From the NCBI RefSeq assembly GCF_900476395.1, contig NZ_UIHB01000004.1, positions 248,001-312,000 on the forward strand: DNA of 64,000 nt, read 5' to 3'. Shown piece after piece: positions 1 to 55,679 of this stretch. How positions within the stretch are numbered: position 1 is the stretch's first letter; every line of letters begins with the position of its first letter. This DNA comes from Xanthomonas euroxanthea (lineage in GTDB: Bacteria > Pseudomonadota > Gammaproteobacteria > Xanthomonadales > Xanthomonadaceae). A program made the position numbers and the translations under genes. The notes under the pieces were generated by a model. It ran no database searches and was not told where the DNA came from. It saw only the letters and a list, made by a program, of their open reading frames with translations.

Positions 1-473
1 CCATCGCCCATGAACACCCAGGTGCGGTGGTCGACGATTTCCAGCTCCGGGCGGTTGTAGCGCTGCGCCAGCAACTTTTCGGCCAGCGCGAACCCGACCG
101 CATTGGCAAAGCCCTGCCCGAGCGGACCGGTGGTGGTCTCCACCCCGGGGGTTTCGCTGCGCTCGGGATGGCCGGCGGTCTTGCTGTGCAGCTGGCGGAA
201 CTGCTTGAGCTGCTCGATCGGCAGGTCGTAGCCGGACAGGTGCAGCAGCGCGTACTGCAGCATCGAGCCGTGGCCGTTGGACAGCACGAAACGGTCGCGG
301 TTGAACCACTGCGGGTTGTTCGGGTTGTGCCGGAAGAAATCGTTCCACAGCACTTCGGCAATATCGGCCATGCCCATCGGCATGCCGGGATGGCCGGATT
401 TGGCGGCTTCGACCGCATCGGCGGCGAGAAAACGGATGGCGTTGGCCAGCTGGCGGCGGGTGGGCTGGGTCAT
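1..473 (-). CDS. tkt: Transketolase, N-terminal part (runs off the window)
   Basis: Thiamine-diphosphate enzyme of the non-oxidative pentose phosphate pathway and Calvin-type rearrangements; cytosolic. The first 157 residues are visible and match the family from the start: SGHPGMPMG near residue 26, the [14 protein letters not shown] cofactor segment at about 66-79, TTGPLGQG at about 123-130, and the beginning of the GDG diphosphate motif at 155-157, where the window ends. The start ATG at 473 gives the usual N-terminus. The upstream symporter is co-directional, separated by a 240-bp gap that holds an inverted GGGAATC-type repeat. The remaining roughly 500 residues lie outside the window. Confidence 0.95.
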
Positions 474-720: not shown

Positions 721-1994
721 TCGCCCTTGGCAACCAGGGTCGTCAGCGCCAGATCGCCGGTCACGTTCAACGCCGTCCGGCACATGTCCAGGAAGTGATT
801 GACGCCCAGGATCATGCCGATGCCGACCGGGTTGACCCCGACCATCGCGCAGATCAACGCCACCACCGGCAGCGAGCCGGAGGGCACGCCGGCGGTGCCG
901 ATGCCGCCCAGGATGCACACCAGCATCACCATGAACTGCTGGCCCAGGCTCAAGTCCACGTTGAAGAACTGCGCCAGGAAGATCACCGTCACCCCTTCGA
1001 ACAAGGCGGTGCCGTTCTGGTTGGCGGTCGCGCCCACGGTCAGCACGAAGCGCGACACCCGCGGCGGCAGGCCCATCTCGTCGGCCACGCGCAGGGCGGT
1101 CGGCAGGGTGGCGTTGCTGGAGGCGGTGGAGAAGGCCATCATCGTGGCCTCCTGGGTCTGCCGGAAGAAGCCGATCGGCGAGCGCCCGGCGAACTTCACC
1201 GCCAGCCCGTAGCTGACCACCATGTGCAGGCCCAGCGCCAGCACCACCACGCCCACGTAAGCGCCCAGACGGATCAACAGATCGAAGCCGAACAGCGCGG
1301 CCAGGTTGAACATGAAACAGGCCACCGCATACGGCGCCAGCCGGATCACCAGGCCGATCAGGGTCATCGAGATTTCGAAGATGCCTTCGATGCCGCGCTT
1401 GAGCGTGGCCACTTTTTCATCGGCGGTCAGCACCATGCCCACGCCGAACATCACCGCAAAGAACATCAGCGACAGGATCGCACCGTTGCTGGACGCCGCA
1501 GCGATCACGTTGCTAGGCACGATCGACAACAGCATGTCCATGCCCTGCGGCTGGGTGCCGGAGCTGGAGATGATTTCGCGGGTGCGCTCGGCGTTCTGCT
1601 GGATCAACTGGTTGGCCAGTTGCGGATCCACGCCCGCACCAGGCCTGAGCACATTGACCAACACCAGCCCCAACAACACCGCCACGCCGGACAGCACGAT
1701 GGTGTAGCCCAGGGTGCGCCACCCCACCCGCCCGAGCGCGCGGATGTCGCCCATTTCGGAAATGCCCATCACCAATGCCGAAAACAGCAACGGCACGATC
1801 AGCATGAAGATCAGATTGAGGAAGATCTGCGAGAACGGAGTGGTGACGTACCTGGTCACCATACGCACCCAGTCGGCATCGCTGCCCGCCAGGTAGTAGA
1901 CCGCCAGACCCAGCAGCAGACCGACGGCGAAGCCAATGCCCATCTTCCAATGCAGGGGCAGGCCCGGGCGGCGCGCGGCGGGGGATGCAGTCAT
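714..1994 (-). CDS. Dicarboxylate/amino acid:cation symporter (DAACS family, GltP/DctA-like)
   Basis: Inner-membrane Na+- or H+-coupled carrier for acidic amino acids or C4-dicarboxylates. The 426 residues hold about eight hydrophobic helices and the family's C-terminal substrate region: GATANQNGTALFEGV, then AGVPSGSLPVVA, then LDMCRTALNVTGD. The canonical NMDGT motif reads NQNGT here, as in some DAACS subfamilies, so the exact substrate is uncertain. The start at 1994 has an AAGG about 9 nt upstream. A GTG at 2018 in the same frame would add eight residues. The end of the gene overlaps a GGGAATC repeat arm. The gene upstream on this strand is batD, across a 1.3-kb repeat-rich gap. Confidence 0.88.
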   Translation of the reverse strand: MTASPAARRPGLPLHWKMGIGFAVGLLLGLAVYYLAGSDADWVRMVTRYVTTPFSQIFLNLIFMLIVPLLFSALVMGISEMGDIRALGRVGWRTLGYTIVLSGVAVLLGLVLVNVLRPGAGVDPQLANQLIQQNAERTREIISSSGTQPQGMDMLLSIVPSNVIAAASSNGAILSLMFFAVMFGVGMVLTADEKVATLKRGIEGIFEISMTLIGLVIRLAPYAVACFMFNLAALFGFDLLIRLGAYVGVVVLALGLHMVVSYGLAVKFAGRSPIGFFRQTQEATMMAFSTASSNATLPTALRVADEMGLPPRVSRFVLTVGATANQNGTALFEGVTVIFLAQFFNVDLSLGQQFMVMLVCILGGIGTAGVPSGSLPVVALICAMVGVNPVGIGMILGVNHFLDMCRTALNVTGDLALTTLVAKGEE

Positions 1995-2096: not shown

Positions 2097-2371
2097 TCTC
2101 TCACAACATCAGGTGATGCAGGCGTTGGAGCGGGCGAGGCCCCTGCGACCAGCCCGCGGATCAGCCGCGCTGCAAGTGCTCTATCCGCAGTGCCCAGGCC
2201 TCATCGGGACGTAACGCGTAAGGCAACGAATCCATAGACCCGGGGCGTATCTAGTCGCGCCGGGATGCGTGAATCAAAAGCCCGATGAGAGTCGAGGGCG
2301 CGGTGTCGACGCTTCATGTCGAACGAGGTGCATCCAGCACCGCTCTTCCATGCACACCGACCAACTCGACA

Positions 2372-2479
2372 GGTCCTTGCCCGCCTACCGTCGCGGGACC
2401 TTACGCGGCATGGATGCCGCGTAAGAGCTTACAAGGACGTACTTGCAGCGTGTCCCGCGATGGTGGGCGGGCAAGGGCC
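2372..2479. repeat. Type A 108-bp nested palindrome, copy 1
   Basis: The outer arms, about 25 bp (CCTTGCCCGCC..CGCGGGAC and its reverse complement), match except for two positions. An inner palindrome TTACGCGGCAT-GG-ATGCCGCGTAA sits directly inside the left arm (2401-2424), followed by an unpaired 26-nt stretch. Either strand could fold into a long stem with one side hairpin. Confidence 0.9.
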
Positions 2480-2642
2480 CCGCAGCAAACTTGCAGCGGC
2501 GAGGGCACCGCACCAGACAATTGGTCGGGGCTCATCTAAAAAGCTGTCTGTCATGCGGCAAGCATCGGACGTGGCGTCGACGCTTCACGTCGAACGAGGT
2601 GCATCCAGCACCGCTCTTCCATGCACACCGACCAACTCGACA

Positions 2643-2750
2643 GGTCCTTGCCTGCCCACCGTCGCGGGACCTTACGCGGCATGGATGCCGCGTAAGAGCC
2701 TACAAGGACGTACTTGCGGCGTGTCCCGCGATGGTGGGCGGGCAAGGGCC
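2643..2750. repeat. Type A 108-bp nested palindrome, copy 2
   Basis: Nearly identical to copy 1 and exactly the same length, with the same outer arms and inner TTACGCGGCAT hairpin. It is preceded by the same flank (GAGGTGCATCCAGCACCGC), which makes a 271-bp direct duplication with copy 1. Confidence 0.9.
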
Positions 2751-2777
2751 CCGCAGCAAACTTGCAGCGTCGAGAGC

Positions 2778-2881
2778 GCGGTGCCCTCACCGCTTGCGGG
2801 ACACGCCGTGAACCCACCCCTGGGGGACCGTGTGGCGGCATCCATGCCGTCACACGGTCCCGCAACCGGCGAGGACACCGC
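2778..2881. repeat. Type B palindromic element, copy 1
   Basis: The outer arms GCGGTG.CCTC.CCG..TGCGGGAC and GTCCCGCAACCGGCGAGG..CACCGC are inverted copies with a few mismatches. An inner hairpin is GGACCGTGTG.CGGCAT / ATGCCG.CACACGGTCC. The element lies 27 bp after a type A element and shares the CGGGAC/GTCCCG junction words with it, so the two types look related. A half copy (GCGAGGGCACCGCACCAG) follows A1 at about 2497-2515. Confidence 0.85.
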
Positions 2882-3072
2882 ACCAGGACGTTAGTCGGCT
2901 GCTTTATTGAAAGCGTTTCGCTCGGCTTGCAGCGGCAGACGAGACATTTCCATATTTCGTGTCGAAAGCCTGCCTGTTGCTCGGCTTGCGCGGGGAACTG
3001 GTCGAACGCAACGTGATTCGAACAGCGAAAGCCATGCCTTGCTTGTAACTGCGCACACCGACCATCTCGACG

Positions 3073-3180
3073 GGTCCTTGCCCGCCCACCGTCGCGGGAC
3101 CTTACGCGGCATGGATGCCGCGTAAAAGCTTACAGGGACGTAGTTGCAGCGTGTCCCGCGATGGTGGGCGGGCAAGGGCC
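3073..3180. repeat. Type A 108-bp nested palindrome, copy 3
   Basis: Same length and arms as copies 1 and 2, with few substitutions. It is preceded by a different flank (flank2) whose homologue precedes copy 5 in block 2. Confidence 0.9.
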
Positions 3181-3342
3181 CTGCAGCCACGCCGCAGACC
3201 AAACGCCTTGCCTTGGAAAACCGCCTTTCTTTAAGTAGCACAGCTTAAAGAACCAGCTGCACCCGCAGTCAGCGTGTCAAAACGAGGCGCAGCACGCTGG
3301 CTATCCAGGACCTGTCCACCGCTGCCAATGCAGCGACACCGA

Positions 3343-15812: not shown

Positions 15813-18230
15813 ATGCCCCGTATTCGTCGTTGGCTGGGCTGGATCCTGGCCGCGTTCGTGGTGCTCGCCCTGCTTGGCGCTATTGCTGCCGGCGGCTTGT
15901 ATTACGCCGTTTCCTCCAAGCTGCCGGACGTGCAGTCGCTCAAGCAGGTCGAACTGCAGGAGCCGATGTATGTCTACTCCAGCGATGGCCGCCTGATGGC
16001 CGTCTATGGCGAGACCCGGCGCTATCCCATCCAGATGAAGGACGTGCCGCTGCGCCTGAAGCAGGCCTTCCTGGCGACAGAGGATGCGCGCTTCTACGAG
16101 CACGGCGGCGTGGATTACAAGGGCATCGCCCGCGCGGTGTGGCTGCTGGCCAGCACCGACGCCAAGCGGGTGCCGGGTGGTTCGACCATCACCCAGCAGG
16201 TGGCGCGGCAGTTCTTCCTCAGTTCCGAGTACAGCTACACCCGCAAGCTGGCCGAGATCCTGCTGGCACGCAAGATCGAAAGTGAGCTGAGCAAGGACGA
16301 GATCTTCGAGCTGTATCTCAACAAGAGCTTCTTCGGCAACCGCGCCTACGGCGTGGGTGCTGCGGCCGAGTACTACTACGGCAAGAAGATGAGCGAACTG
16401 AGCCTGGACGAGATGGCCTCGCTGGCCGGCATCCCCAAGTTCCCGTCCAGCGGCAACCCGATCAGCAATCCGGAGCGTGCCCAGGAACGTCGCGATTACT
16501 ACGTGCTGCAACGCATGGCCGACCTGGGCTTTGTCAGCCAGGCCGAAGCCGATGCGGCCAAGGCGGTGCCGATGCACGCCAAGCCGCATGAGCCGCCGGT
16601 CGAGGTCTACGCCCCGTACGTGGCCGAGCTGGTGCGCCAGGAAATGATCGCCAAGTACGGCGGCGATGTGCTCAACAAGGGTTACCACGTCACCACCACC
16701 ATCGATGCCACGCTGCAGACCGGCGCCGATGCAGCGGTTGCCGACGGCCTGCGCCTGTACGACCACCGGCATGGCTGGCATGGCGTCGAACAGCATTTCG
16801 ATGTCCCTGCCGACGCGGATGCAGCGGCACTGGCCAAGCATCTGTCCGGCGTGTTCACCCAGGGCGGCCTGCGCGCGGTGATCGTGGCGCGCACCAATGC
16901 CGACGGCGGCGTGACCGTCGTGCAGAGTGACAAGACCGAGCTGACCCTGCCGGCCAGCGCCAGCCGCTGGACCAACAAGACCCCGGCCAAGCTGCTGACG
17001 CGCGGCGACCTGACCCGCATCCGTGCCGGCGAAAAGGACGGCGAATGGATCATCGACCAATTGCCGCGCGGCCAGGCCGCACTGGTGTCGCTGGATGCCA
17101 ACAGCGGCGCGCTGCGCGCGCTGGTCGGCGGTTTCAGCTTCGCCGGCAACAAGTTCAACCGTGCCACCCAGGCACGCCGCCAGCCCGGTTCCAGCTTCAA
17201 GCCGTTCGTCTATGCGGCCGCGTTCGAAAAGGGCTTCAACCCCGCCTCGATCGTGCTCGATGCCCCGGTGGTGTTCCGCGACCGCCGCGGCAAGACCTGG
17301 TCGCCGCAGAACGACGGCGGCGGCTTCCGCGGCCCGATGCGGCTGCGCGAGGCGTTGGTGCAATCGCGCAACCTGGTGTCGGTGCGCCTGCTGGACGCGA
17401 TCAGCGTCGATTTCGCACGTAAATACATCAGCCAGTTCGGCTTCCAGGAAGCCGAGCTGCCGCCCAACCTGTCGATGTCACTGGGTACCGCGTCGCTGAC
17501 GCCATTATCGGTCGCGCGCGGCTATGCGGTGTTCGCCAACGGCGGCTCGCGCGTGGACACCTGGATCGTGGACGAGGTGAAGGACCGCGACGGCAATGTC
17601 GTCTTCAAGGAAGTGCCGGCAGTGGCCTGCCGTACCTGCGCGTTGCAGGGCGGCAATGTCGCACCGGTAAGCCAGGTGGTGGACGGTTTCAACTTCGGCG
17701 CCCCTGCGCTGCCCAAGTCGATCGAGCCGACCACGGCCACGCCGGCGGAGACCGCCCCGGCAGCCACTGCCGAAACCAAGATCGCGCCGCGCGCCATCGA
17801 CGAGCGCACTGCCTACCAGCTGGTGTCGATGATGCGCGACGTGGTCCAGCGCGGCACCGGCACCGCGGCCAAGGTGCTGGGGCGCGAGGACGTCGGCGGC
17901 AAGACCGGCTCGACCAACGATCACCGTGACGCCTGGTTCTCCGGCTTCGGCGGTCCCTATGCCACCACGGTCTGGGTGGGCCGCGACGACTTCCGCTCGC
18001 TCGGCTATCGCGAATACGGCGGCAAGGCCGCATTGCCGATCTGGATCGAGTACATGCGCGTGGCCCTGAAGGACAAGCCGATCGCCGCCAACGACCCGCC
18101 CGACGGCATGACCCAGGCCACCATCAATGGCGCGGTGGAATGGGTGAAGAACGAGGACCTGGATCGCCTGCAGGATTACGACTACGGCCTGCAGGAGCAG
18201 CAGGACGAGAAGGCGTTCGATATTTTCTGA
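15813..18230 (+). CDS. mrcA: Penicillin-binding protein 1A (bifunctional peptidoglycan synthase)
   Basis: Inner-membrane class A PBP with transglycosylase and transpeptidase activity. A signal anchor ([21 protein letters not shown]) is followed by the glycosyltransferase domain with [20 protein letters not shown] and [15 protein letters not shown]. An OB-like insertion precedes the transpeptidase domain, with the serine motif [11 protein letters not shown] and KTGST. The start at 15813 gives 805 residues. The GTG at 15777 in frame sits only 3 nt after a TATACT -10-like box (15769-15774), so it is unlikely. The gene diverges from pilM, an arrangement common in gammaproteobacteria. Confidence 0.94.
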
Positions 18231-18234
18231 GTGC

Positions 18235-18280
18235 CGGGAATCGGGAATCGGGAATCGGGAATCGAGAATGGGGAATCGGA
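18235..18280. repeat. GGGAATC-type direct repeat array after the penicillin-binding protein gene
   Basis: Four tandem GGGAATC units and two variants begin 6 nt after the TGA stop. Only one clear arm is seen; the opposite strand words (CCGATTCCC) appear once at about 18295-18301. Confidence 0.8.
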
Positions 18281-18458
18281 ACGGCGCAGGCCGGCCGATT
18301 CCCTGGGTTCGGCACGTAGCGGCAGCGATGGTGCAACGCATGCCAGCGCGTGCTTGCGGTCATCGAGCACGGTCCATCGGGCCTGCGCCCTGTGACCTTC
18401 GCCACACCGTCATGCCGCTGTTGTAGAGTCGAACCAGGTTCATGAGGGGAGCCCGGTC

Positions 18459-21984: not shown

Positions 21985-22124
21985 GGGATTGGAGATTCGG
22001 GATTCGGGATTCGGGATTCGTCGCCGCATCTTCGCAAGGATCAGCGAGGCGCGCGAATCACCGGGACGCCAAGGCGGCAGCAGCCTTGCCTTTACGATTC
22101 CCGATTCCCGATTCCCCAATCCCC
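21985..22124. repeat. GGGAATC-type inverted repeat between recG and the nucleoside hydrolase gene
   Basis: The left arm (about 21985-22020) has GGATTCGGGATTCGGGATTCG units. The right arm (22094-22124) has ATTCCCGATTCCCGATTCCCC. The spacer is about 73 bp. The element occupies the whole intergenic gap, from just after the recG stop to the base before the hydrolase start. Confidence 0.9.
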
Positions 22125-22129
22125 GCCAC

Positions 22130-38180: not shown

Positions 38181-38287
38181 AGGGAATAGGGAGTCGGGAA
38201 TAGGGAATGGGGCACCGCGCCAAGCAAGCAGGCCAAGGGTGAATCGTACCTGCTTTGACGATTCCCCATTCCCGATTGCCTATTCCC
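38181..38287. repeat. GGGAATC-type inverted repeat between yicC and gmk
   Basis: The left arm (38181-38210) has GGGAATAGGGAGTCGGGAAT. The right arm (38258-38287) has ATTCCCCATTCCCGATTGCC. It fills the yicC-gmk gap and ends next to the yicC TAG. Confidence 0.9.
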
Positions 38288-38289
38288 GG

Positions 38290-39150
38290 CTATTCGATGT
38301 TCTGCACCTGCTCGCGGATCTGGTCGATCAGCACCTTCAGATCCACGGCGGCGTTGGAGGTGCGGCTGTCCACCGACTTGGAGCCGAGCGTATTGGCTTC
38401 GCGGTTGAATTCCTGCAGCAGGAAATCCAGGCGGCGGCCGACCGGCTCGCGCTGCCTGAGCACGCGGCGGATCTCGGCGATGTGGCTGGACAGGCGGTCG
38501 AGCTCTTCGTCCACGTCCAGCTTCTGCAGCCACAGCACCAGTTCCTGTTCGGCGCGGCCCGGGTCCACCGGATGCGGCAGATCCGCCAGGCGTGCGGCCA
38601 GCTTGGCGCGCTGACCTTCGCGGATGACGGGAATCAGCGTGCGTACCTCGGCGGCGATGCGTTCGATCGCATCGACCCGCTCGCTGATCGCATCGGCCAG
38701 CTTGCCGCCTTCGCGCTCGCGCGCGGCCACGAAACTGTCCACCACCTCGTCCAGCAATGCCAGGGCCTGGGCCTGCAACGCCGGTGCGTCCACGTCCTGC
38801 ACCTGCAGCACTCCGGGCAGCTGCAGCAGATCGGTGAAACCCACCTGCAGTTTGGGGAACATCCCGTCAAGGCGGGTGGCCAGGGCGCCCAGTTCCTGCA
38901 GCAGCGATTCGTTGACGGCCAGGGTCTGCGCGTTGTCCGGCGCGCGCAGGCGCAGCGCCAGATCCAGCTTGCCGCGGCTGTTTTTCGCCGCCACGCGCTC
39001 GCGCAGCAGCGGCTCCAGCGCACGCAGTTCTTCGGGCAGGCGCACGCCCACTTCCAGAAACCGATGGTTGACCGAGCGCAGCTCGCAACCGAGCGTGCCC
39101 CAGGGCGTGATGCGTTCGCCACCCGCAAACGCGGTCATGCTTCGAATCAT
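38290..39150 (-). CDS. yicC: YicC-family endoribonuclease
   Basis: The 286 residues have the conserved N-terminus [18 protein letters not shown] and [17 protein letters not shown], and the C-terminus with [19 protein letters not shown] and [12 protein letters not shown]. YicC proteins are now viewed as RNA-cleaving enzymes linked to small-RNA turnover (family knowledge). The gene diverges from rph, whose product also processes RNA, across 109 bp. gmk follows downstream across a repeat element. Confidence 0.92.
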
Positions 39151-46561: not shown

Positions 46562-46960
46562 ATGCACGATCCACGTCAACCCTCGCATCCCGACCACCCG
46601 ATGTACCAGCAGATCCAGCGCGGCGTGCATGCAATCGATGCGGCACATGGACGCGCACCCGACCAGACCAGTGACCGGCTCAGCGCAGCGCTGCTGCCGC
46701 TGGCCAAGGAAGGCGGCCTGTCGCGCGTGGACCACGTGCTGATGAGCGAGGCCAACCACCGCGGCGTGCACGGCGGCGAAAACGTGTTCGTGGTGCAGGG
46801 CGATCCGGCCAACCCGGCGCATCTGCGCGCGCACATGAAGACCGAGCAGGCATTGCGCACCCCGGAAGAGCAGTCGTTCGCGCGCGCGCAGCAGCTTTCC
46901 GCATCGAGCGAGCAGGTCCAGCAGCCCGAGCGCACCCAGACACCGCAGCTCAGTCAATAG
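46562..46960 (+). CDS. Stand-alone XVIPCD protein, candidate type IV secretion substrate
   Basis: The 132 residues look like an XVIPCD, the C-terminal domain that delivers Xanthomonadaceae effectors to the VirD4 coupling protein. The pattern is HPDHPMYQQIQRGVHAIDAAHGR in the N-terminal third, DQTSDRLSAALLPLAKEGGL, RVDHVLMSE, then NVFVVQGDPANPAHLRAH and KTEQAL. A glutamine-rich tail (QQLSASSEQVQQPERTQTPQ) follows. No enzymatic domain precedes it, so it is either an orphan signal domain, a truncated effector or an adaptor. GGAG lies about 9 nt upstream of the ATG. No immunity-type gene is adjacent. It sits between pepQ and pepP. Confidence 0.8.
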   Translation: MHDPRQPSHPDHPMYQQIQRGVHAIDAAHGRAPDQTSDRLSAALLPLAKEGGLSRVDHVLMSEANHRGVHGGENVFVVQGDPANPAHLRAHMKTEQALRTPEEQSFARAQQLSASSEQVQQPERTQTPQLSQ

Positions 46961-46978
46961 CACGCCTCGCAACAGACG

Positions 46979-46997
46979 GCCCGGCGCGGCGCCGGGC
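46979..46997 (+). terminator. GC-rich hairpin after the XVIPCD gene
   Basis: GCCCGGCGC / GCGCCGGGC, 18 nt after the stop and without a T tract. It may be a weak terminator or 3' protective hairpin; it also lies 106 nt past the convergent pepP stop. Confidence 0.4.
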
Positions 46998-47102
46998 AGA
47001 GCGTGTCTTGAGTAACAACGCCGGCGCAATCGCACGTGCCGGGCAATCGGAACACCACCTGTAGTGCGCGCGTTGCATTGCAGCGCAATGCAACGATCCG
47101 CG

Positions 47103-48473
47103 TCAGATCCGCTCACCATCGGCGTTGCCGCGCCCTGCGCCCAACGCGTCGCGATCCGCCATCTCCGCTTCGATCTCCTCGGCGCTGCGTGCCAAGGCAT
47201 CGGTCAGCACCCGATGGCCGTCGGCGGTGATCAGCACATTGTCTTCGGTGCGGATGCCGATGCCGCGCCACCTGGCCTCCACCGTGGTGTCGTCGGCGGA
47301 GATATAGAGCCCCGGCTCGATGGTGAACACCATGCCGGGCTCGAGCAGACGCGAGTCACCGGCCAGCCGGTAGTCACCCACATCGTGCACATCCAGCCCC
47401 AGCCAGTGGCCGGTCTTGTGGCGATAGAAGCGTTTGTAATGGCCATCGGCGATATTGCGCTCCAGCTTGCCCTTGAGCAGGCCCAACTGCAGCAGTCCTT
47501 CGGTCAGGGTCTGCACCGCGGCCAGATGCCCGGCTTCGTAGGCCACGCCGGGGCGCGCCTGTGCAAGTGCGGCAGCCTGCGCCGCGCCGACCAGATCATG
47601 CAGCGCGCGTTGCGCGGGGGTAAAACGGCCGTTGACCGGGAAGGTGCGGGTGATATCGGCCGCGTAGCCGCGGTATTCGGCACCGGCATCGATCAGCACC
47701 AGCTCGCCATCGCGGCTGCGCGCATTGTTGGCGCGGTAATGCAGCACGCAGGCATTGCTGCCGGTGCCCACGATGCTGCCATACGCCGGCCATGCATCGG
47801 CGGCGCGAAACGCGCGCTCCACCTCGGCCTGCAGTTCGTACTCATGCATGCCCGGCCGCGCCATCCGCATGGCGGCGCGATGGGCGCGCACGCTGATGTC
47901 GGCAGCGTGTTGCATCAACGCGATCTCGTCGCGCGACTTGAACAGCCGCTGCTCGTGCAGCAGATGCCCGAGCTCGAGGAATTCGTGCGGCGGCTGCGCG
48001 CCGTGGCGCACCTGCTCGCGCACGCGCTTGAGCCAGCCGATCAGCTTGAGATCGAAATCCACGTCGCGCCCGAAGTGGTAATAGACGCGGCTGCGCCCCT
48101 CCAGCAGGCCCGGCAGGATCTCGTCGACATCGTCGATGGGATACGCATCGTCCATGCCGTAGCGCTCCACCGCGCCTTCCTGGCCCTCGCGCGGGCCATC
48201 CCAGGCTTCGCGCTCGGCATCGCGCTCGCGGCAGAACAGGATCGCCTCGCCATGCTTGCGGCCCGGCACCAGCACCAGCACCGCCTCCGGCTCGGGAAAG
48301 CCGCTCAGGTACCAGAAATCCGAATCCTGCCGGTACGGGTAGTGGGTGTCGTGGCTGCGCACCCGCTCGGGTGCGGCCGGCAGGATCAGGATGGCCTGAT
48401 CGCCGGCCATCTGCATCAGTTGCTTGCGCCGACGCGCGTACTCGGCCGCGCCGATCCCGGTGAGCTTCTTCAT
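47103..48473 (-). CDS. pepP: Xaa-Pro aminopeptidase
   Basis: M24 metallopeptidase removing N-terminal residues before proline. The 456 residues comprise an N-terminal AMP_N domain (ARRRKQLMQMAGDQAILILPA, YRQDSDFWYLSGFPEPEA) and a catalytic pita-bread domain. Its metal ligands are in LIDAGAEYRGYAADITRTFP, GHWLGLDVHDVG, EPGMVFTIEPGLY and GIRTEDNVLI. It is co-directional with the UPF0149 gene, 13 nt apart; this pair (ygfB-pepP) is a conserved arrangement in gammaproteobacteria. Confidence 0.96.
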   Translation of the reverse strand: MKKLTGIGAAEYARRRKQLMQMAGDQAILILPAAPERVRSHDTHYPYRQDSDFWYLSGFPEPEAVLVLVPGRKHGEAILFCRERDAEREAWDGPREGQEGAVERYGMDDAYPIDDVDEILPGLLEGRSRVYYHFGRDVDFDLKLIGWLKRVREQVRHGAQPPHEFLELGHLLHEQRLFKSRDEIALMQHAADISVRAHRAAMRMARPGMHEYELQAEVERAFRAADAWPAYGSIVGTGSNACVLHYRANNARSRDGELVLIDAGAEYRGYAADITRTFPVNGRFTPAQRALHDLVGAAQAAALAQARPGVAYEAGHLAAVQTLTEGLLQLGLLKGKLERNIADGHYKRFYRHKTGHWLGLDVHDVGDYRLAGDSRLLEPGMVFTIEPGLYISADDTTVEARWRGIGIRTEDNVLITADGHRVLTDALARSAEEIEAEMADRDALGAGRGNADGERI

Positions 48474-51393: not shown

Positions 51394-51486
51394 CCGGGAT
51401 TCGGGGATTGGGATTGGCCCACTGCCCGCCCGCGTTGCACCGCTTTGACGAATCCCGAATCCCGAATCCCCAATCACTAATCCCGA
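51392..51486. repeat. GGGAATC-type inverted repeat between the EVE gene and rpiA
   Basis: The left arm (51394-51416) has CCGGGATTCGGGGATTGGGA. The right arm (51449-51486) has GAATCCCGAATCCCGAATCCC and more. The spacer is about 32 bp. It abuts the EVE stop and ends 10 nt before the rpiA ATG. Confidence 0.9.
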
Positions 51487-51496
51487 GCTCTTACCC

Positions 51497-54719: not shown

Positions 54720-54817
54720 GGTTACCGGCGACACGCCCACGCGAAGACACAAGAAACCGAGATTCGAGTCGAAGCGTCGTTTATCAAATGCAGTCACAAG
54801 CTGAGTGCGTCGAGTGC

Positions 54818-54919
54818 GCGGCGCCCTCACCGCTCGCGGGACACGCCGTGCATCCGTCCCTGGAGGCTCCGTGGCGGCATCCATGCCGCCAAGGGTCCCG
54901 CAATCGGTGAGGACACCGC
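54818..54919. repeat. Type B palindromic element, copy 2
   Basis: Same outer arm words as B1 (GCCCTCACCGCTCGCGGGAC and its partner ending GGACACCGC). The inner hairpin is GTGGCGGCAT / ATGCCGCC. Confidence 0.85.
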
Positions 54920-55053
54920 ACCAGACAGTTGGTCGGCGCTCTTGTGAAAAGCTGTCTCTCGTGCGGTATGCATTAAGACGTGAAGCCGTTGCTCCACGAT
55001 CCAACGAGGCGCATCCAGCACCGCTCTTACCGTGCACACCGACCATCTCGATT

Positions 55054-55161
55054 GGTCCTTGCCCGCTCACCGTCGCAGGACCCTGAGCGGCATGGATGCC
55101 GCGCCGGAGCCTACATGGACGTACTTGCGGCGCGTCCCGCGATGGTGGGCGTGCAAGGGCC
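55054..55161. repeat. Type A nested palindrome, copy 4
   Basis: 108 bp, the most diverged type A copy. The inner palindrome is reduced to GCGGCAT-GG-ATGCCGC and the arms carry a few mismatches. Confidence 0.85.
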
Positions 55162-55188
55162 GTGCAGCCAACTCGCAGCGTCGTGTTC

Positions 55189-55290
55189 GCGGTGCCCTCA
55201 CCGCTCGCGGGACGCGCCATGCATCCGTCTCTGGAGGCTGCGTGGCGGCATCCAGGCCGCCAGGAGTCCCGCAATCGATGAGGACACCGC
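55189..55290. repeat. Type B palindromic element, copy 3
   Basis: About 102 bp, close to B2 in sequence. It is placed 28 bp after a type A element, as B1 is after A2. Confidence 0.85.
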
Positions 55291-55482
55291 ACCAGGCAAT
55301 TGGTCGGTGATCAGGCAAACCCTGCGTGTTGCGAGACCTACATTGAGACGCTGAGAAAGTTGGGAGCTTATTTATAAGCTTGCCTGTTACTCGAACTGCG
55401 ATGGGGGATTTTCAGACGCAACGTGGTCCAAACAATGCACGCCCAGCCCTGCTCGCAACCACGCACACCGACCATCTCGACA

Positions 55483-55590
55483 GGCCCTTGCCCGCCCACC
55501 GTCGCGGGACCTTACGCGGCATGGATGCCGCGTAAGAGCTTACAGGGACGTACTTGCAGCGTGTCCCGCGACGGTGGGCGGGCAAGGGCC
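55483..55590. repeat. Type A nested palindrome, copy 5
   Basis: 108 bp with fully matched outer arms (a natural compensatory change: ACCGTCGCGGGAC with GTCCCGCGACGGT) and the intact inner TTACGCGGCAT hairpin. Confidence 0.9.
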
Positions 55591-55679
55591 CTGCAGCCAA
55601 GCCGCAGATCAACCGCTCTACACCTGCCGCGCGTCGTACGTCAGATGATTGAAGCGGCTTGAGCGCCAGCACCCAAACG

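Follow-up and report, generated by a model that had tools for sequence, protein, structure and literature searches.

The 64,000-nucleotide stretch of Xanthomonas DNA analyzed here (the window, G000:C7:248001-312000, in a genome of 4.9 Mb and 10 contigs) carries two intergenic blocks of long palindromic elements, block 1 after a BatD-like gene and block 2 after a thiamine-phosphate-synthase-like gene. Both are built of two sub-types, A and B:

2354..2489, + strand (core-forward on +): B element 1 of block 1, general model match 2374-2477
2409..2416, + strand: loop of hairpin 1 in this first B (example), CATGGATG, CsrA-type CANGGAYG
2432..2439, + strand: loop of hairpin 2 in the first B (example), CAAGGACG, CsrA-type CANGGAYG
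2497..2533, - strand: truncated A element (remnant) of block 1, 37 bp, A query positions 99-135, 89% identical; its core-forward strand would be -
2625..2760, + strand: B element 2 of block 1, general model match 2645-2748
2767..2903, - strand (core-forward on -): A element of block 1, general model match 2777-2882
3055..3190, + strand: B element 3 of block 1, general model match 3075-3178
54807..54941, - strand (core-forward on -): A element 1 of block 2, general model match 54817-54920
55036..55171, + strand: B element 1 of block 2, general model match 55056-55159
55178..55312, - strand (core-forward on -): A element 2 of block 2, general model match 55188-55291
55465..55600, + strand: B element 2 of block 2, general model match 55485-55588

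Read along the + strand, block 1 has the order B, A remnant, B, A, B and block 2 the order A, B, A, B. The first-pass annotation had assigned both blocks the series B, flank1, A, B, flank2, A; the collinear palindromes are real, but that series is not exact, and the truly collinear portion is B-A-(~150 bp flank)-B. Two ungapped repeats link the blocks, 2619-2826 with 55030-55237 (85% identical over 208 bp) and 2966-3206 with 55376-55616 (85% over 241 bp). The annotation had also missed that A is an inverted relative of B, homologous to its reverse complement (74-81% identity, inverted repeats I1-I6 in the window), so that A-linker-B forms an inverted pair. Both sub-types fold into a two-hairpin core of ~50 nt atop a stem of about 28 bp, and in the first B the two loops are spaced 23 nt from GGA to GGA. 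Elsewhere in the window lie GGGAATC-type heptamer repeats (530-602, 686-725, 18222-18294, 21986-22127, 38182-38291 and 51449-51488), possibly the quadruplex-forming repeat enriched in Xanthomonas that PMC4692102 takes as its subject in the part consulted, and a 6S RNA (RF00013, 49881-50065, 85 bits).

The rest of the genome was searched with A, B and the models R1 and R2, scoring 40 or 150 candidates each, so the resulting counts are lower bounds. Merged matches gave 86 stretches (398 kb), in which BLAST annotation identified at least 88 clusters and at least 219 copies; of these, 194 (124 B and 70 A) exceeded 105 bp. Among the clusters found, all 66 with several copies had a single orientation. 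The 104 directly neighboring full pairs among the copies found were 61 A-B, 30 B-A and 13 B-B, with no A-A; when partial copies were skipped, 91 of 106 neighbors alternated, whereas 10,000 shuffles averaged 51 and never exceeded 69. Together with the uniform orientation of the clusters, this shows that the alternation is not due to chance. The random order of A and B without shared flanks that the first-pass annotation had named as speaking against a composite was not seen. Nearly all A-B linkers (59/61) fell into groups of about 20-32, 84-106 and 143-190 bp, the two others measuring 60 and 121 bp. We conclude that the composite is a real unit, best viewed as an A-linker-B pair whose core-forward strands face outward; in other families, 10/10 adjacent pairs were likewise outward and inverted. 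The two options offered at the outset, a composite copied as a unit or a structure under selection, each proved partly true: A-linker-B recurs as a unit with grouped linkers, and the structure is itself preserved.

Some loci of this genome depart from the common pattern. Six (L199, L200, L206, L218, L219 and L223) carry a third sub-type pair with different stem sequences, and same-type copies recur every 472-478 bp in 4/6 of them. L053 (1497-1632) and L025 (1501-1636) hold chimeras, an A with a B-type second hairpin and the converse, which suggests gene conversion between sub-types. Assembly contigs also end at elements (G000 C1:98-440, C6:96-454 and C4:174071-174412), and the start of C1 and the end of C4 correspond in relatives (L094, L115) to opposite sides of a single site.

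To place the two blocks in time, we compared orthologous sites in the genus, taking 30 loci from 35 genomes with a match. Elements were present in 28/30 loci after the BatD-like gene and in 25/30 after the thiamine-phosphate-synthase-like gene, in one orientation throughout at each site. The two empty loci at the former belong to the element-poor genomes G022 and G032 (5 and 4 matches), and two of the five at the latter lie on contigs that stop shortly downstream of the gene. A single recent duplication of one block was rejected, since both sites are occupied in most species of the genus examined. When the top-scoring site of each of 29 species was considered, 19 coincided with a cluster of our genome and 10 were not found among its stretches. 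Linker lengths at a single site vary between species. One site of the window differs in occupancy:

46950..47158, no strand: convergent intergenic site, empty here; its ortholog in the relatives G015, G017 and G025 holds A-(20 or 21 bp)-B

This site is also empty in G009, and its flanks are too diverged for an empty/filled junction to be read.

Such presence and absence would fit selfish or passively mobilized miniature insertion elements of YPAL/REPIN-like type, the core serving as the single-stranded DNA recognition site of a putative transposase and gene 3' ends being harmless places to insert. The outward inverted pairs of other families point the same way, as do several traits that the consulted part of PMC2229807 reports for YPAL: duplication of 3-26 bp at the target site, the existence of both empty and filled sites, and targets that coincide with or adjoin dyad symmetry. 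Against this stand the age of the two block sites and the 19 of 29 shared top sites, together with orthologous sites at which the core is retained and the arms change in compensation, so that copies look maintained in place. Nor did Pfam identify a transposase among the four genes flanking the blocks, which bears out the first-pass annotation on this point. As a full account, we consider mobility somewhat unlikely.

Outside this genome, the elements are spread across the class. R2 matched 39/61 genomes, comprising 35/35 of the genus, 0/2 of other genera of the family and 4/24 outside the family, and R1 matched 68/299 genomes of the order in 21/85 genera, including many other genera of the window's own family. 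Beyond the genus the ~50-nt core stays constant and the stem sequence changes. A third model, R3, was built from 40 elements, none of them from the window's genus as judged from all loci but L394-L396; it recovered exactly the 8 elements in the window (E 8e-16 to 2e-23) and matched 77/369 sampled Gammaproteobacteria genomes in 69/272 genera. A and B are therefore members of a Gammaproteobacteria-wide palindromic family, of which YPAL/RU-2 is a named branch. Of the 53 stretches returned by a contig scan with a second-family pattern, 17 held an element by the stem rule, 16 of them on CAJXKA01 contigs and L353 on a different Gammaproteobacteria MAG; the remaining 36, which include many from unrelated phyla, appear to be chance matches. 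Carriage as plasmid or phage cargo was rejected, as one B query found no match in plasmids and one A query none in phages.

Several loci from these searches hold additional features. In L398 of genome G392, a second repeat (GTCCGACAGGCTGCTGGCCTCAT...) accompanies the elements at 136-158 (+), 923-945 (-) and 1117-1139 (+), and inspection by eye of the ORF list recognized no transposase in a possible gene between inverted copies. In L252, L266, L247, L253 and other G042/G052 loci, many elements have short tandem repeats (GTGACGC, GAGACGGT) directly adjoining the upstream side of the stem. L401 2907-3104 matches Rfam RF02675 (Ysr141) at 37.9 bits, with a gathering score of 196, and matches of long hairpins to miRNA families of Rfam were judged to be chance.

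The stems drift in sequence and stay paired. In G042 and G052, two species of one genus, 12/20 G042 loci match a G052 element locus by their flanks (74-89% identical), and at these orthologous sites the arms differ yet each is paired. Compensating arm changes are clear in some (L306/L288, L265/L277), and in others the arms have diverged too far for alignment. Among 30 copies from the R3 search, arm similarity is that of random sequence (0.327), yet 759/773 inner pairs are Watson-Crick. An alignment of 40 elements, A3, was restricted to rows of 104 nt (the length of 58/75) with at most three unpaired or A-C positions. In A3, 96.5% of cells are paired, 540 cells are changed on both sides vs 152 when shuffled, and covariation reaches 0.883 compared with 0.193 for shuffled and at most 0.160 for slid versions; because the stem rule retains only well-paired copies and A3 rows were selected for pairing, outer-stem pairing is partly built in. 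Hairpin 2, which lies outside the stem rule though within the search models, is thus a cleaner test, and there 120/120 cells (100%) are paired with 23 double changes.

The loops of the core carry a strand-specific signature. The bases C, A, G, G, A and G of both CANGGAYG loops are invariant in 40/40 A3 rows, and the N positions use all four bases; AGC and GC are further invariant bases of the core, unexplained by CsrA binding. ANGGA occurs in hairpins 1 and 2 of 148 and 146 of 152 own copies, 63 and 63 of 63 copies from other families, 21 and 21 of 21 from other genera of the own family, and 30 and 30 of 30 from the class search. At least two CANGGAYG motifs per element were found core-forward in 133/152 own copies, 58/63 from other families, and 26/26 and 22/29 in further sets; on the reverse strand, no copy in any of the four sets had two. 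Real cores carried both motifs in 178/209 cases, shuffled cores in 0/10,000. RNAs that bind CsrA/RsmA present CANGGANG in a hairpin loop, with paired sites 10-60 nt apart, and RsmE recognizes A/U-CANGGANG-U/A. Both loops follow the former rule in sequence, with a GGA spacing of mostly 23-25 nt. The exact SELEX consensus of CsrA, RUACARGGAUGU, is present in 0/152 own copies, 15/63 from other families, and 0/26 and 5/29 in the further sets.

The stems also distinguish the two strands. Read core-forward, departures from Watson-Crick pairing within the inner 26 pairs of 157 own copies comprise 489 G-U and 35 A-C (152 vs 3 per own element), compared with 50 and 9 in 63 copies from other families (30 vs 6 per element) and 7 and 0 in class-search copies, all being counts over related copies and not independent events. 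An equal bias would be expected if a single DNA strand folded, which suits mobile elements as well as RNA. It does not suit a DNA-level site (a cruciform, or a nucleoid-protein or recombination site), which we regard as very improbable. Very long near-perfect palindromes are what such a site would offer, and palindrome correction at the DNA level would give the high proportion of Watson-Crick inner pairs noted above; a strand-symmetric site, however, predicts neither an excess of G-U over A-C nor loop motifs on one strand. Each of the eight contigs with clusters also holds both orientations, leaving no apparent chromosomal polarity.

The elements are located at gene 3' ends, about half of them between convergent genes. 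Using a home-made codon-score gene finder, we assigned 79 distinct own clusters (stem rule) to 41 convergent, 34 co-directional and 2 divergent gene pairs, 2 having a missing flank. Hence 41/77 clusters with two flanking genes are convergent and 2/77 divergent, against 33/358 and 38/358 background gene pairs, or 17/118 and 23/118 for background pairs with gaps of at least 150 bp. The 88 BLAST-defined clusters, a lower bound, gave 47 convergent, 36 co-directional and 2 divergent, with 3 missing a flank. Between co-directional genes, the own element lies closer to the upstream stop in 31/34 clusters. In other families of the order, 25/50 clusters with both flanks are convergent and 4/50 divergent; in wider order and class loci from the R1 and R3 searches, based on cruder gene calls, the figures are 17/39 and 3/39. 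Single elements between co-directional genes occur in sense and antisense in 5 and 6 own cases, 5 and 11 in other families, and 7 and 9 among R1/R3-search loci. That no orientation is preferred with respect to genes is the chief finding that speaks against a simple 3'-UTR reading, and it favors mobile elements, as does the avoidance of promoter regions between divergent genes.

Enrichment in convergent intervals and proximity to stop codons would equally be expected of hairpins indifferent to strand, acting between convergent genes as bidirectional transcription ends or mRNA stabilizers that require no specific protein. REP-like mRNA stabilization is established in other systems, and both strands of the elements fold stably (B1, -98.9 and -92.0 kcal/mol). 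TTTT within 15 nt after the stem appears on the reverse strand in 9/63 copies from other families (1/166 own). On the core-forward strand it appears in 0/166 own copies and 0/63 from other families, which counts against this explanation; an intrinsic terminator on that strand was rejected, as no U-tract directly follows the stem. The G-U/A-C asymmetry and the invariant loop bases point to a strand- and sequence-specific role beyond that of a plain hairpin, and we judge strand-indifferent hairpins improbable.

The putative partner is encoded in this genome (csrA, G000:C9:462254-462409). Within the order, csrA was found in 57/57 element-positive good-quality genomes (65/68 of all) vs 215/243 good-quality genomes overall (Fisher p=0.0003, ignoring kinship). 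Across the class, the counts were 63/64 element-positive vs 217/250 element-negative good-quality genomes (Fisher p=0.003, again ignoring kinship), or 72/77 of all element-positive and 280/314 of good-quality genomes overall. The search returned no csrA match in 5/77 element-positive class genomes, including G520 at 98% completeness. The co-occurrence is weak, since csrA is nearly universal (313/369).

Taken together, the double loops, their strand and their position lead us to tentatively favor, with a probability of roughly 0.45, dispersed CsrA/RsmA-binding RNA hairpins at gene 3' ends that may act as a decoy, as 3'-end stabilizers, or as both. Read-through or 3'-UTR transcription would produce the core-forward RNA, in which the two CANGGAYG hairpin loops, mostly 23-25 nt apart, could bind one CsrA/RsmA dimer while the paired stem would protect the RNA. 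An outward A-B pair would supply one sense copy whichever of the convergent genes is transcribed, and the many copies might jointly form a dispersed RsmA decoy, stabilize the 3' ends of their host transcripts, or do both. Core-forward transcription in this genome, CsrA/RsmA binding and decoy function are parts of this model that we infer from sequence. A mobile-element origin and a CsrA/RsmA function are mutually compatible. Rather more doubtful is the further step of a mobile-looking family turned into a genome-wide distributed CsrA/RsmA sponge, in which lineages such as Xanthomonas would have, in place of one CsrB-type gene, more than 100 3'-end hairpins that each hold one RsmA dimer, and RsmA activity would be set by bulk read-through of transcription.

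If the loops bind CsrA/RsmA, they would provide a testable answer to Xanthomonas having RsmA but no identified rsmB homologue, and an example of a repeat family tuning a global regulator. A true sponge would explain both the absent CsrB homologue in Xanthomonas and the role of YPAL/Ysr224 across Gammaproteobacteria.

Among known systems, CsrB, RsmX, RsmY and RsmZ share hairpin loops with ANGGA with the A/B elements and are encoded by one or a few dedicated sRNA genes, whereas the elements here have two loops each and many copies per genome. None of these Rfam families reached its gathering score in the window. RNAs of this type are not reported for Xanthomonas in the consulted parts of PMC7694677 and PMC3937308, the latter stating that rsmB homologues were not identified there (Andrade et al. 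2014, PMC3937308), and the elements are possibly the missing RsmA decoys of the genus. RsmU of Xanthomonas campestris is an RsmA-binding 3'-UTR RNA (Tang et al. 2020, PMC7694677). As described in the part of that paper drawn on, it differs from our elements in ending in an intrinsic terminator and being limited to Xanthomonas, with no repeat nature described. Changing all four GGA of RsmU did not abolish RsmA binding (PMC7694677, same part), which calls for caution with the motif argument.

The elements resemble the RAYT-associated REP, BIME and REPIN sequences in being numerous intergenic palindromes with alternating inverted orientation and preferred linkers. The Xanthomonas REPs set out in the consulted part of PMC2817692 consist of a short palindrome (GTAGGAGCGC...) headed by GT(A/G)G. 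Neither feature occurs in the consensus sequences of 29 B and 27 A copies, and our elements, capped by two hairpins, are several times longer, so a RAYT-type REP was ruled out. ERIC (IRU, RU-1) is likewise an intergenic palindrome, of ~127 bp, and was rejected: the best R3 score on an E. coli ERIC locus was 3.1 bits (E 1.7), and the ERIC center sequence is missing from our elements.

The closest relative is YPAL. The first-pass annotation could not tell whether the family had been named; its enterobacterial branch has been, as YPAL/RU-2. RU-2 is the YPAL sequence printed in PMC2759123, cited here for that sequence, and it matches A3 at positions 63-119 (E=6e-14); the two CANGGAYG loops are both present, at a spacing of 24 nt. 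YPAL shares with our elements the core, the intergenic location and the long hairpin fold. It differs in its full length of 167-168 bp, compared with 104-136 modeled positions here, and the RU-2 stem is interrupted and fails the stem rule; since the similarity is confined to the core, we speak of the same family by core and not of YPAL elements. De Gregorio is said to have described in 2006 that YPAL lies close downstream of stop codons, a trait also seen in our own elements. YPAL is a stem-loop family of Y. pestis (PMC2267715, in part), reported for Yersinia and Erwinia carotovora with target duplications, empty and filled sites, and a possible influence on upstream transcripts (PMC2229807, in the part consulted); a two-sub-type outward composite, a CsrA reading or a class-wide spread is absent from the portions of the YPAL literature used here.

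Ysr224 (Rfam RF02770) matched below threshold (29.9 bits, gathering 70). Its printed consensus is the reverse complement of the core, and this opposite strand counts against the core-forward CsrA reading. Transcripts of several Ysr224 copies in Yersinia ruckeri (PMC12112432, in part) favor an RNA, and Ysr224 is among the most prevalent sRNA annotations in bacteria according to the part of the survey PMC9029176 consulted. Our search of open-licence papers recognized no account of the Xanthomonas composite and none of a connection to CsrA. The elements are thus a known kind of repeat that extends far more widely than the consulted portions of the literature report, and what appears to be new is the presence of CsrA/RsmA-type CANGGAYG loops at both hairpins, on the only strand that tolerates G-U pairs. 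The comparison joins three loose ends: a Xanthomonas composite repeat for which we found no name, the YPAL elements of Yersinia and Ysr224 of Rfam.
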